A stretch of 64,000 nucleotides of DNA from Arthrobacter sp. MMS18-M83. GTDB taxonomy: Bacteria > Actinomycetota > Actinomycetes > Actinomycetales > Micrococcaceae. Position numbers and translations under genes: made by a program. Positions 14,413-17,949 of the stretch are shown piece after piece. The stretch's first letter is position 1. Every line of letters starts with the position of its first letter. Where the stretch lies: the NCBI RefSeq assembly GCF_026683955.1, contig NZ_CP113343.1, forward strand, positions 3,224,001-3,288,000, given 5' to 3'. The notes under the pieces are model-generated. The model saw only the letters and a list, made by a program, of their open reading frames with translations, was not told the origin of the DNA and searched no databases.

Positions 14413-15117
14413 ATGCGAACGCACGAACTCGTCCTCAGTTGGATCGAAAAGCAACTGTCGGACGGACATTTGGTGCTGGGCGGGCGGCTCCCCGCCGAAC
14501 GGGCGCTCGCAGAGCAACTGGAAGTCTCAAGGACATCAGTCCGTGAAGCCATCCGGATCCTGGAAGCCATGGGTGTGGTCCGGGCCGGCGTGGGGTCCGG
14601 CAAGGACGCCGGGACAGTGGTCATCGCCGAACCGGCCACGGCCCTCGGCTCCGCGCTCCGCCTCCATGTGGCCACGCAACATTTGCCCGTCGCGGACATC
14701 GTGCAAACCCGGGTCCTGCTCGAATCGTGGGCGGTATCCCGCGCCAAAGCCGACGCCCCCGAACTCGCGGAAGCAGCGAGGCTGCTGGACGAAATGGACG
14801 CAAGCTCCGCCGTCGACGGCTTCCTCGCGCTGGACGTCGCCTTCCACCTGGCGCTGGCGGAAGCCGCGGGAAATGCGGTGGTGAGCACCATCATGGGCTC
14901 GCTGCGCGAAGCGATCGAAGGCTACGCCGCGGCCCTGACTGCCAACCTGCCGGATTGGGACAGCACCGCGAACCGCCTGCGGTGCGAGCACCGCGCCATC
15001 TTGGAGGCGCTGAACAACGGCGACGGCGGCCGGGCAGCGATGCTCGTCACCGCGCACATCGAGGGGTACTACCGGGAAGCTGGGCTGGGCCGGCCTCCCG
15101 CGGAGACTAGGCCTTGA
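14413..15117 (+). CDS. lldR: FadR/GntR-family regulator (LldR-like)
   Basis: 234 aa. The N-terminal winged helix has GGRLPAERALAEQLEVSRTSVREAIRIL, the GntR signature. The C-terminal FCD all-helical ligand domain carries the usual acidic/histidine metal positions (LDVAFHLALAEAAGN and CEHRAILEAL). In this family such a domain often binds small carboxylates; with lldD divergent, lactate is the likely effector. ATG 14413 lies 6 nt after TAGTAT, so the mRNA is probably leaderless. The 3' end overlaps the convergent LacI-family gene by 11 bp. Confidence 0.88.
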   Translation: MRTHELVLSWIEKQLSDGHLVLGGRLPAERALAEQLEVSRTSVREAIRILEAMGVVRAGVGSGKDAGTVVIAEPATALGSALRLHVATQHLPVADIVQTRVLLESWAVSRAKADAPELAEAARLLDEMDASSAVDGFLALDVAFHLALAEAAGNAVVSTIMGSLREAIEGYAAALTANLPDWDSTANRLRCEHRAILEALNNGDGGRAAMLVTAHIEGYYREAGLGRPPAETRP

Positions 15118-16120
15118 CGGGTCCGGTGCTGCCCCTGAGCTCAATCCGCGGGGGGAAGTAATTCGTGGGGGACGCGGCGTCGTTGGCCTGAATCTGCTCC
15201 CGCATGCGGCGCCACGCAAGATCGCCGAGATCGGTGATCGGCACGGCCGCGGTGGTCAGTGGAGGCATGGTGTACCGGGCGAAGGGCATGTCATCGAAAC
15301 CCGTGAGCGACAAGTCTTCCGGCACGCGGATCCCTCGCTGGCTCAGGCCACTCAACAAGCCCATCGCTGCGACGTCGTTGAAGACGAGGATGCCGGTGGC
15401 GCCGCATGAGGCGACGGCATCGCTCGACTCAAACCCGGCGTCGAACGTGTTGCCTCCCGGAATGAACTGCAATTCGACGTCCGGGTACTCGGCCGTGAAC
15501 TTCTCGAGCCCCCGGAGCCGCTGCACGTTGGACGCGCTCCGGTCCGGACCCGTCAGATAGGCCAATTTTCGATGGCCCAGCTCAACGAGATGGGCGGCGA
15601 GTTCCTGGATGCCTTGGCCGTAGTCCACTACGAGGCTGGGTGTCGGTACCGACTCGGTGGTCCGGTTGATGAGCACGAGCGGATAGAGGGTGGGGGCGAG
15701 TTCTTCGAGTTCGGCGTCGCTCATGCGGGGGGCGCAGAGAACGACGCCGTCGCAACGCCGCCGGGCTTCCCCGGCGAGAATTGCTTCTTCACTGGAGACC
15801 TCGGATGAGTCCGCGATCAAAACGCGGTAGCCGTCGCGGGCGGCGGCAATGCTGAGCCCACGAAGGATGGCCTGGAACGTCGGGTTGGACAGGTCCGGAA
15901 CCACGATTCCGATAGTGTCCGTTTTTCCCAGGGCCAGGCTCCGGCCTACTGGGTTTGGTTTGTATTTCAGCTCGGAGGCGGCTGCGCGAACGCGCGCGGC
16001 AATGTCCACGTCCACGGTGGTATTGCCGTTCATGACACGGGAAACGGTGGCATGCGAAACGCCGGCCATGGATGCCACATCTGCGATGCCCACCCGCCGG
16101 GTGTTTCTTCTGCCTGGCAT
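15107..16120 (-). CDS. LacI-family transcriptional regulator
   Basis: 337 aa. N-terminal HTH (VGIADVASMAGVSHATVSRVMNG) with hinge helix (KPNPVGRSLALGKT), then a periplasmic-binding-protein-like effector domain (TDTIGIVVPDLSNPTFQAILRG; AYLTGPDRSASNVQRLRG; LTGFDDMPFARYTMPPLTT). The effector is unknown; no sugar gene is adjacent, so its targets may be elsewhere. A good ribosome site (ggaaggaac) precedes ATG 16120. It is divergent from the DAHP synthase transcript. Confidence 0.88.
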   Translation of the reverse strand: MPGRRNTRRVGIADVASMAGVSHATVSRVMNGNTTVDVDIAARVRAAASELKYKPNPVGRSLALGKTDTIGIVVPDLSNPTFQAILRGLSIAAARDGYRVLIADSSEVSSEEAILAGEARRRCDGVVLCAPRMSDAELEELAPTLYPLVLINRTTESVPTPSLVVDYGQGIQELAAHLVELGHRKLAYLTGPDRSASNVQRLRGLEKFTAEYPDVELQFIPGGNTFDAGFESSDAVASCGATGILVFNDVAAMGLLSGLSQRGIRVPEDLSLTGFDDMPFARYTMPPLTTAAVPITDLGDLAWRRMREQIQANDAASPTNYFPPRIELRGSTGPVKA

Positions 16121-16191
16121 GGGTTCCTTCCTGGAGTTGCTGCCGCCTCGCGAGCGGCGATTTGTTCTGAGGTGAAGTTTATATTGCGTGG

Positions 16192-16203
16192 GGAAGCGGT
16201 TTC
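16192..16203 (-). promoter_or_regulatory. possible LacI-type operator
   Basis: On the minus strand GAAACCGCTTCC resembles the GAAA-CG-TTTC operator pattern of LacI proteins. It lies about 70 nt upstream of the LacI gene start and just upstream of a TAAACT -10-like box on the same strand, consistent with autoregulation. One half-site is degenerate. Confidence 0.3.
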
Positions 16204-16226
16204 TCTTGATGTCGTTGCATTTCGAT

Positions 16227-16256
16227 TTGCGAGCGGCTGGAAGCCGAGGCTATGGT
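16227..16256 (+). promoter_or_regulatory. promoter of the DAHP synthase leader transcript
   Basis: TTGCGA at 16227-16232 and TATGGT at 16251-16256 are separated by 18 bp. The TATGGT box ends 6 nt before ATG 16263, so transcription would begin at or next to that ATG and the leader peptide would be translated from a leaderless end. Confidence 0.6.
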
Positions 16257-16262
16257 TTGGCT

Positions 16263-16322
16263 ATGACTAACCGTTGGTATGCGTATTTTTCGTTGGCTCT
16301 GGAGGGGCCCGCGTCTAACTGA
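16263..16322 (+). CDS. aromatic amino acid leader peptide
   Basis: A 19-residue ORF, MTNRWYAYFSLALEGPASN. It holds one Trp, two Tyr and one Phe within five codons (W5, Y6, Y8, F9), immediately before a strong RNA stem and 113 nt before the gene for the first enzyme of aromatic synthesis. This is the classical layout of an attenuation leader: ribosome stalling on Trp, Tyr or Phe codons would report charged tRNA levels. The start fits the upstream -10 box. It is too short for ordinary gene finders. Not experimentally supported. Confidence 0.7.
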   Translation: MTNRWYAYFSLALEGPASN

Positions 16323-16430
16323 CACGCATCCAACTTTCCTTCAGAGCCAACAGGGCAGAGATCATTCTCTGCCCTTCGCCATTTCCAGGCGGGCTCTAAG
16401 TAGGGTCCGCTCCTCTCCGGAACAGGACCC
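16292..16430 (+). promoter_or_regulatory. attenuator-like leader RNA of the DAHP synthase gene
   Basis: Stem 1: 16292-16307 pairs with 16336-16351 over 16 bp including G-U pairs; its 5' arm begins at the codon right after the W-Y-A-Y-F run. Stem 2, terminator-like: AGGGCAGAG (16352-16360) with CTCTGCCCT (16367-16375), abutting stem 1. AGAGCC at 16343-16348 can alternatively pair with a second GGCTCT at 16392-16397. A third stem, GGGTCC (16403-16408) with GGACCC (16425-16430), would cover the weak aroG ribosome site. No strong T-tract follows stem 2. The exclusive antiterminator is not obvious, so the mechanism is unresolved. Confidence 0.6.
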
Positions 16431-16435
16431 ACTTC

Positions 16436-17578
16436 ATGACCAGCATCGCCGCAGAGCCCAGCACACATAACGCGGACATCGGGGCTGCCGCCGCGCAGTC
16501 GACGTCGAACCTGCGCGTAAGCCGCTTCGAACCGCTCCCCACGCCGCAGGAAATCAGCGCGGAACTGCCGTTGGACGCCAGGGCCTCGGCCGTCGTCGAG
16601 CGCGGACGCGACGGAGTCCGCGCAATCATGGACGGAGTTGACGACCGCCTGCTCGTGATCGTTGGCCCGTGCTCCATCCACGACCCGAAGGCCGGCTTGG
16701 AATACGCCCGCCGCCTCGTCAGCCAGGCCGAGAAGCACAAGGAGGACCTGCTGATCGTCATGCGGGCCTACTTCGAGAAGCCGCGCACCACGGTGGGCTG
16801 GAAGGGCCTCATCAATGATCCCCACCTGGACGGCAGCCACGACATCGCGGCCGGGCTCCGTACGGCGCGCGGATTCCTGCAGCAAGTCACGGCCCTCGGC
16901 CTGCCGACGGCCACAGAGTTCCTGGAACCCATCAGCCCGCAATACATGGCCGACCTCGTGGCGTGGGGTGCCATTGGAGCCCGTACCACCGAGAGCCAGA
17001 TCCACCGCCAACTCGCCTCCGGACTCTCCATGCCGATCGGCTTCAAGAACGGGACCGACGGCGACCTCCAGGTAGCGATCGACGCTTGCGGTGCGTCTGC
17101 CGCACCGCAGGCATTCTTGGGAATCGACGGCGATGGCCGCGCCGCCCTCGTGGCGACCGCGGGCAACCCGGACACCCATGTGATCCTGCGCGGTGGCCGA
17201 AAGGGCCCGAACTACTCCGCCGCCGACGTCGCCGAGGCCTCGGAGAAGCTCTCGGCCAAGGGATTGAATCCCCGGCTGATCGTGGACGCGAGCCACGCCA
17301 ACAGCGGCAAGAGCCACCACCGCCAAGCCGAGGTTGCACTGGAGATCGGCGCCCAGCTGGAGGACAACGTGGCTTCGCCGATCGCCGGAGTGATGCTGGA
17401 AAGCTTCCTGGTAGGCGGGGCACAGAACCTGGATGTGGAACGGCAGCTGGCTGGGGAACAGGACTTGGTGTACGGCCAGAGCGTTACTGACGCCTGCATG
17501 GAATGGGAGGTCACAGTGTCCGTCCTGGACCAGTTGGCGGCCTCGGCACGCAAGCGTCGTGTGGCAGCTGCCGACTAG
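16436..17578 (+). CDS. aroG: class I 3-deoxy-7-phosphoheptulonate synthase (DAHP synthase)
   Basis: Condenses phosphoenolpyruvate and erythrose 4-phosphate, the entry step of aromatic amino acid synthesis. 380 aa, type I-alpha (AroF/G/H-like). Signatures: LLVIVGPCSIHDPKAGLEYA (metal cysteine), MRAYFEKPRTTVGWKGLINDP (PEP and E4P binding), GARTTESQIHR, GFKNGTDGDLQVA, and IVDASHANSGKSH (metal histidine). The ribosome site is weak (acagga). The upstream leader peptide implies control by aromatic amino acid supply as well as the usual feedback inhibition. Which E. coli paralogue it matches in feedback specificity cannot be told. Confidence 0.95.
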   Translation: MTSIAAEPSTHNADIGAAAAQSTSNLRVSRFEPLPTPQEISAELPLDARASAVVERGRDGVRAIMDGVDDRLLVIVGPCSIHDPKAGLEYARRLVSQAEKHKEDLLIVMRAYFEKPRTTVGWKGLINDPHLDGSHDIAAGLRTARGFLQQVTALGLPTATEFLEPISPQYMADLVAWGAIGARTTESQIHRQLASGLSMPIGFKNGTDGDLQVAIDACGASAAPQAFLGIDGDGRAALVATAGNPDTHVILRGGRKGPNYSAADVAEASEKLSAKGLNPRLIVDASHANSGKSHHRQAEVALEIGAQLEDNVASPIAGVMLESFLVGGAQNLDVERQLAGEQDLVYGQSVTDACMEWEVTVSVLDQLAASARKRRVAAAD

Positions 17579-17736: not shown

Positions 17737-17949
17737 ATGTCCGCAGAGACTAACTTCTCGAACGCGCGTTTCATGACCGTGGCCGAGGTTGCCGAAGTCC
17801 TCCGGGTTTCCAAAATGACCGTGTACCGCCTGGTCCACTCGGGAGAAATGCCAGCCGTCCGTTTTGGGCGTTCATTCCGTGTCCCCGAGGAAGCAGTGAA
17901 CCAGTACCTCAAGGGTGCGGTCGTCGATGGACGCTCGGAGACCGCTTGA
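17737..17949 (+). CDS. BldC-like helix-turn-helix protein
   Basis: 70 aa MerR-like/excisionase-type single-domain DNA-binding protein: FMTVAEVAEVLRVSKMTVYRLVHSGEMPAVRFGRSFRVPEEAV in overlapping short motifs, the recognition helix being SKMTVYRLVHSG. Very close in form to Streptomyces BldC and M. tuberculosis Rv0500A, which also precede the bS22 gene. ATG 17737 follows ggagaa. Streptomyces BldC binds direct repeats cooperatively and controls development; the role in this non-sporulating group is not established. Confidence 0.88.
   Translation: MSAETNFSNARFMTVAEVAEVLRVSKMTVYRLVHSGEMPAVRFGRSFRVPEEAVNQYLKGAVVDGRSETA

Follow-up and report, generated by a model that had tools for sequence, protein, structure and literature searches.

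In attenuators of the trpL/pheL type, the control codons lie within the first stem of a leader RNA that can fold into mutually exclusive helices, and in ermC-type systems the position of the ribosome on the leader decides the pairing of a downstream ribosome site. Among actinobacteria, the aroR-aroF attenuator of Corynebacterium glutamicum was reportedly described by Neshat et al. in 2014, and Canestrari et al. are said to have described in 2020 the polycysteine leaderless attenuators of mycobacteria, in which a short ORF attenuates an operon. In the openly accessible parts of the papers concerned, aroR-aroF is called transcription attenuation (PMC11802643) and also “negative translational control” (PMC7356990), the AroR leader carries Phe-Tyr-Phe (PMC4046766, PMC11802643), and aroR responds to Phe and not Tyr (PMC11802643). 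In Escherichia coli, according to PMC11802643, TyrR and TrpR act as repressors of the step with which aromatic synthesis begins. The leader ORFs leuL, trpL, and ilvL of Streptomyces lividans are given as leaderless, some of them lacking a U-run, in the available portion of PMC8079986, and the available portion of Seliverstov 2005 (PMC1262725) lists candidates before trp, cys, leu/ilv, and ileS genes, reporting no such structure ahead of genes that belong to other amino acid pathways.

The window, by which is meant the whole 64,000-nucleotide stretch of Arthrobacter sp. MMS18-M83 DNA analyzed here, almost certainly carries a leader-peptide attenuator before aroG, the sole type I DAHP synthase gene in the genome by protein search (Table 1). 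5′ of the biosynthetic gene stands a short ORF in which codons for the pathway products abound, the general mark of an attenuator. As far as the accessible descriptions of aroR-aroF extend, the two systems are alike in having an aromatic-codon leader peptide 5′ of a DAHP synthase gene and would share the aromatic-limitation response reported for aroR-aroF; they differ in that F and Y codons are reported there and W, Y, and F codons are found here, and in that the present element lacks a convincing terminator and its helix chain extends to the Shine-Dalgarno sequence. With the trpL/pheL type it shares mutually exclusive helices and the placing of control codons in the first stem; it departs from that type in its three amino acids per leader, leaderless start, five-helix chain, and an output that is probably at translation initiation. 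As in the ermC type, the position of the leader ribosome would govern pairing at a downstream ribosome site, but the signal would be tRNA charging, and the ermC-like X:Z pairing is unsupported across groups. The mycobacterial polycysteine attenuators likewise have a leaderless short ORF in actinobacteria, with cysteine rather than aromatic codons. The S. lividans leaders are also leaderless, and the available portion of PMC8079986 lists eight, with no DAHP synthase leader among them.

Rfam 15 returned 0 matches for the whole window (gathering thresholds), for 16150-16500 (E<=1), and for nine related loci (E<=0.1). A search of the open literature, with most subscription papers out of reach and some sources available in part, found the aroR attenuator and no report of the element in Micrococcaceae or class-wide. 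We rate aroR-type leader attenuation as known and this element, in Micrococcaceae and the wider class, as new within the open literature, in which C. glutamicum aroR is the one described control of such kind found for actinobacteria.

Table 1. Features of the aroG leader region and associated genes, in window coordinates unless stated otherwise
Feature	Position	Strand	Basis or remark
LacI-family regulator	15107-16120	-	divergent; start ~142 nt upstream of leader ATG
-35-like box TTGCGA	16227..16232	+	sequence; in most of 121 loci the best TTGACA-like match lies 17-19 nt before the -10 box and starts with TT
-10 box TATGGT	16251..16256	+	6 nt 5′ of leader ATG; comparative support
Leaderless leader ORF, MTNRWYAYFSLALEGPASN + TGA	16263..16322	+	ATG 16263-16265, TGA 16320-16322; sequence and family comparison
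Segment a	16272..16284	+	overlaps control codons; pairs with a′ (permutation z -8.2)
Control codons TGG TAT GCG TAT TTT (Trp-Tyr-Ala-Tyr-Phe)	16275..16289	+	each identical in 120 or 121 of 121
Segment b (GTTGGCTCTGGAGG)	16292..16305	+	P1 5′ arm; 98.3% of cells paired, 46 sequences; z -11.4
Segment a′ (ACGCATCCAAC)	16324..16334	+	directly 3′ of stop codon
Segment b′ (CCTTCAGAGCCAAC)	16338..16351	+	P1 3′ arm; also 5′ partner of X
P2, constant 9-bp hairpin, 4-nt loop	16353..16374	+	both-side changes at 4/8 pairs; arms z -17.1
P3, small CGCC...GGCG hairpin	16377..16391	+	both-side changes at 3/4 pairs
Segment X (GGCGGGCTCT)	16388..16397	+	includes GGCTCT 16392-16397; pairs with b′ (P4) or Y (P5)
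Segment Y (GGGTCCGC)	16403..16410	+	pairs with X or Z
Segment Z (AGGACCC)	16424..16430	+	contains Shine-Dalgarno AGGA of aroG; P6 (Y:Z) permutation
aroG, type I DAHP synthase, 380 aa	16436..17578	+	TIGR00034, 6.9e-143
Small excisionase-type helix-turn-helix protein	17737-17949	+	directly 3′ of aroG; TIGR01764
Class II DAHP synthase	G000:C1:696334-697626		encoded elsewhere in the same genome

Every element named in an earlier, sequence-only reading of this DNA was found in the window where that reading had placed it. The reading had proposed a TTGCGA/TATGGT promoter and a leaderless start at 16263, and both gain comparative support. The two boxes are 18 nt apart in the window, and a TAnnnT box lies 6-8 nt 5′ of the leader ATG in 121/121 loci of the window's family. 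Class-wide, the box occupies this position in 194 of 208 loci and 60 of 70 representatives, and it occurs at four control offsets in just 0-1 of the 208. A Shine-Dalgarno-like motif (AGGA/GGAG/GAGG) was found 5′ of the leader start in 0/208 loci. Despite a σ70 scan of 15800-16700 that yielded no promoter reaching its threshold, a promoter before the leader is supported because the position of the -10 box is kept across loci. The RNA element is single-copy in the genome, two weak extra rows being on the opposite strand at the same place.

In the genus sample of 121 genomes, which counts the window's own genome, 120 were found to have aroG; at family level the gene was found in 61 of 149 genomes at E <= 1e-80. 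The family upstream set comprised 120 regions and the window, of which 82 were from same-genus relatives (80 taken of 119 with a match, plus two more) and 38 from other genera (taken from 53 matches, 15 being left out). An ORF with the aromatic cluster was present in all 121 aroG upstream regions, window included, and relatives lacking the codons or stems, which the sequence-only reading had named as evidence against its own proposal, were found in none of them. Counts of the window's codons (n = 121) were TGG 121, TAT 120, GCG 120, TAT 120, and TTT 120; within the family, the codons are frozen, not the residues alone. Variant leaders read WYANF in L089, CWQAYF in L107, and QWYAYF with a TTC end in L119, and the L040 leader is out of frame 3′ of the aromatic cluster.

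To look beyond the family, 297 genomes of the order were searched with a covariance model (R1), which had matches in 54 of them, at one place each and in five families. In the 38 order-level loci examined (three in the home family), aroG was downstream in every case, an independent result because this position was not built into the covariance-model search; of the other order matches, twelve were at known home-family aroG places, and G357, G522, G502, and G429 were left out. A DNA-pattern search, from which 80 loci were taken of at least 118 matches, reached records named Arthrobacter, Pseudarthrobacter, Paenarthrobacter, Sinomonas, Isoptericola, Promicromonospora, Oerskovia, Luteimicrobium, Glycomyces, Phytoactinopolyspora, Nakamurella, Streptomyces canus, and others. 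Among these 80, aroG lay within 2.5 kb in 76, and in L239, L247, and L252 the element is present and the available sequence stops about 120-410 nt past it. A Thiorhodococcus match, one of the 80 and with no aroG within 2.5 kb, looks like chance. Another record, titled Sporosarcina beigongshangi (L190), carries a Micrococcaceae-type leader and aroG at 78.6% identity, probably through contamination or transfer.

Loci at class level and in the anonymous family f21 were located via aroG, and their position before the gene is by construction. At class level, aroG was found in 66 of 295 genomes, and the search rule identified a leader in 11 of the 20 upstream regions examined and none in nine, among them all seven from family f31; a weaker ORF with RFY at L308 was left uncounted. 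In f21, with aroG in 102 of 121 genomes, the 30 best-scoring and 20 further chosen loci all have a leader, and in f31 the search rule found one in 0/7 aroG upstream regions. The leader recurs with diverged peptides in at least eight actinobacterial families besides that of the window. Its presence in relatives, expected from the sequence-only reading, thus held in all 121 family regions and failed farther off, in f31 (7/7) and at two loci.

Trp, Tyr, and Phe codons occur together in 63 of 70 dissimilar representative leaders, W and Y in four, and Y and F in three. Tyrosine was encoded by TAT 87 times and TAC twice in 68 leaders, and phenylalanine by TTT 59 times and TTC nine times; in nine ORFs of the window taken for comparison, the corresponding values were TAT 12/61 and TTT 9/65. 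UAU and UUU are the wobble-read synonyms. The retained W/Y/F codons lend comparative support to the earlier proposal that the leader senses several aromatic aminoacyl-tRNAs at once. Near invariance of peptide and codons in the window's family would also suit nascent-peptide arrest, in which an aromatic metabolite would cause the RWYAYF peptide to arrest its own ribosome. Across families, however, the peptide diverges (RWYWRF, YWRF, RWFTY, YFWF, WRFYF, and QFYWR) with its aromatic content retained, and for this reason peptide arrest was set aside as highly improbable.

Folding of the RNA from 16263 to 16450 gave -81.7 kcal/mol, compared with -54.3 ± 4.8 for 200 dinucleotide shuffles (z -5.8, 0/200). 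The 16-bp stem described earlier (16292-16307 with 16336-16351) comprises 14 pairs (P1, 16292-16305/16338-16351), or 16 counting two terminal G-U pairs, and has comparative support. On an alignment of 46 dissimilar family sequences (A1), P1, P2, and P3 together had 97.5% of cells paired versus 93.9 ± 0.3 with shuffled partners, 53 cells were changed on both sides versus 13.7, and pairing was clearly lower when the arms were slid. Most compensatory changes sit in P2 and P3, P1 contributing one such pair (five sequences). For b′:X, 95.0% of cells were paired on A1, but b′ is nearly invariant and covariation is uninformative there. Because b′ hardly varies within the family, covariation of P4 is visible in cross-family data only.

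In the cross-family permutation test, the energy of a cognate segment pair within a locus was compared with that of partners drawn from other loci (5000 permutations), with 68 representatives for P0, P1, and P4 and 60 for P5 and P6. Cognate partners were preferred for P0 (a:a′; z -8.2), P1 (b:b′; z -11.4), P4 (b′:X; z -7.6), P5 (X:Y; z -7.0), and P6 (Y:Z; z -7.3 to -8.0), each at 0/5000. The X core for the P5 and P6 tests was picked via its pairing with b′, the unbiased P4 test being the fixed-window one at n = 68. With one locus per group (14 groups, which are anonymous families or named genera, some of the latter possibly falling inside an anonymous family), the median p was <= 0.003 for all five helices. 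A shorter X window gave z -3.1 for X:Y (11/5000, p 0.030), and an earlier segmentation with an over-extended X (n = 47) gave z -4.6 for X:Y and z -4.4 for Y:Z, with a per-group p of 0.053 for Y:Z. No preference was seen for X:Z or for the control pairings (b′ with upstream DNA, a:X, b:X, b′:Y, and upstream:Y; z -1.2 to +1.4), and controls under the earlier segmentation were worse than chance (z +0.9 to +4.7). Left out of the permutation sets were 13 of 221 loci by selection rule (L040 and L117, with an altered element; L314 and L336, with a leader that the rule missed; seven f31 loci; L308 and L311), all of L342-L361, and 65 of the 80 named loci. In addition, L309 and L310 were omitted from the n = 68, codon-cover, and P2 tests, and L293 and seven loci without a placed start from n = 60.

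P0 pairs at least 2 nt of the W/Y/F codons in 53 of 68 loci. Because the order a-b-a′-b′ makes P0 and P1 cross, the two should not both form fully; P1 and P4 share b′, P4 and P5 share X, and P5 and P6 share Y. This sequence comparison supports a chain of alternatives made up of the five helices a:a′, b:b′, b′:X, X:Y, and Y:Z, and by the same comparison mutually exclusive helices are placed by the control codons. The two alternative partners proposed earlier for AGAGCC (16343-16348) are supported by P1 and P4, and the further stem suspected over the aroG ribosome site by covariation of Y:Z. The sequence-only reading could define no mutually exclusive antiterminator; a competitor has now been found, in that a:a′ crosses b:b′, which shares b′ with b′:X. 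Two individual loci count against the chain: L342 (g201) has no good P4 (best -5.2 kcal/mol), and in L349 (g223) the P4 hairpin appears in the fold whether or not the 5′ part is included, with no evident P1.

The conserved hairpin P2, whose arms pair with each other (z -17.1), could suggest classical transcription attenuation with P2 as the regulated terminator, as published for aroR-aroF, described as a transcription attenuator in the accessible part of PMC11802643. Consistent with this reading, P2 is strongly conserved with compensatory changes, a T-run lies 3′ of P2 in L118, L119, and L120 (g20), T-rich tails follow it in L309, several loci of f21, and a small number of further loci, and one weak competitor signal emerged among ten tests (3′ arm of P2 against b-to-stop, z -2.4, 48/5000, uncorrected). 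On the other hand, P2 is compatible with the P1 and P4 states alike, and five tests gave no cognate-specific competitor for its 5′ arm (z -0.1 to +3.9). The tail holds 2-4 T of 8 in the window and in all scored family loci (116 of 119, the unscored three being L118-L120), and a U-run intrinsic terminator competing with an antiterminator, as in the trp type, was not found in them. Moreover, P2 is seemingly absent by eye in a number of f21 lineages whose leaders are of the YFWF/YYWF type (L344-L348, L350-L352, L355, L357, and L358), b′ pairing directly with X; the folds of L345, L348, L351, L352, and L357 show this direct b′:X hairpin clearly. With T-poor tails, no 5′-arm competitor, and one weak test of ten, a regulated terminator at P2 is disfavored in most lineages, transcription attenuation of this kind is improbable, and P2 is probably not the switch. 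The 9-bp terminator-like hairpin of the earlier reading is thus present, but its role as a regulated terminator is not favored for most lineages, given that both states accommodate it and that a U-run is missing in most cases. The P2 sequence of L118-L120 is itself changed, as if turned into a terminator.

The model favored here, held as a whole with slightly better than even confidence, is a ribosome-position attenuator by which DAHP synthase would respond, through the helix chain, to how far tRNA-Trp, tRNA-Tyr, and tRNA-Phe are charged, all three being read together. Because of the parity of the chain, two states are expected: P0+P4+P6, with the aroG ribosome site paired, and P1+P5, with the site open. 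With the aromatic tRNAs charged, the ribosome would clear the leader, and P0, P4, and P6 would form, closing the site. With an aromatic tRNA in short supply, the ribosome would stall at the control codons and cover a, blocking P0; P1 would then form just ahead of the ribosome, leaving X free for Y and the site open. P2 and P3 would serve as scaffold hairpins, and lineages with a U-run after P2 or P4 may terminate transcription instead. That a stalled ribosome should block P0 and favor P1+P5 follows from the overlap of the control codons with a in 53 of 68 loci. In 58 of 70 representatives, 5 nt separate the last aromatic codon from the GGCTC core of b that follows it, a spacing that resembles that of hairpins standing before a paused ribosome. 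In L349, TTTTTT directly follows the b′:X hairpin, and P4 would for this reason be the OFF structure there, in agreement with the proposed polarity. This polarity, in which a stall gives P1+P5 and an open site, is reasonably probable, and an output that is mainly translational in the window's genus appears about equally so.

Equilibrium folding did not confirm the proposed output. Over 60 loci, the mean energies of the P1 state (-98.7 kcal/mol) and the P4 state (-96.3 kcal/mol) were close. X paired with downstream sequence more often when P1 was formed (47 up, 2 down), a count that also takes in pairing of X with the Shine-Dalgarno region, and Y:Z was commoner in the P4 state (32 versus 12). 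Accessibility of the Shine-Dalgarno sequence did not differ consistently between the P1 and P4 equilibrium models (of 60 loci, 10 up and 11 down, p 0.43), and the wider initiation region was slightly more open in P4 (14 versus 7, p 0.009). In the window, Y:Z forms in both states at equilibrium.

The opposite, ermC-like polarity was also considered: a stall at the last aromatic codon would cover b, b′:X would form, and the aroG site would open, X otherwise pairing with the Shine-Dalgarno region in the window's genus (GGGTTCTG:CAGGACCC). When the RNA was cut at a Phe-stalled ribosome, a cruder test in which some start codons were mis-set, the site opened in 57 of 121 loci and closed in 2, the openings being nearly all in the window's genus. 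Because of these 57 openings, the result favors the opposite polarity in that genus, but not in the window itself, for which no effect was predicted (+0.02). By a toeprint-type footprint, a ribosome stalled at the last aromatic codon would cover 5 of the 6 nt of the b core in 58 of 68 loci. When the A site holds the first aromatic codon, however, the core would be wholly uncovered in 68/68, and Trp would hardly be sensed. A Phe-dominant response, reported for C. glutamicum aroR in the accessible part of PMC11802643, would suit the opposite polarity, which nevertheless leaves P0 and P5 unexplained and relies on X:Z, a pairing without cognate preference (z +0.5 to +1.0; +0.1 under the earlier segmentation). 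The opposite polarity is accordingly regarded as unlikely, and pairing of X with the Shine-Dalgarno sequence as a general output, although predicted in much of the window's genus, was rejected for want of cross-group support.

An RNA element present in many actinobacterial families and reading all three end products together would account for the control of DAHP synthase in many soil and industrial genera, provide a testable case of one leader integrating multiple tRNAs, and indicate how the output of an attenuator can shift between ribosome-site closure and termination. A broader reading, to which we give somewhat less than even credence, is that one old actinobacterial RNA integrates Trp, Tyr, and Phe tRNAs through UAU/UUU codons and passes the signal along a five-helix domino to the aroG Shine-Dalgarno sequence, with some lineages ending in an intrinsic terminator and C. 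glutamicum aroR being derived from it. Two f21 loci (g201, genomes of 2.4 and 2.7 Mb, a genus that may be Corynebacterium) have WRFYF leaders with P0 and P1 present; compared by description, these leaders resemble the Phe-Tyr-Phe reported for C. glutamicum AroR, the window leader being W-Y-A-Y-F.
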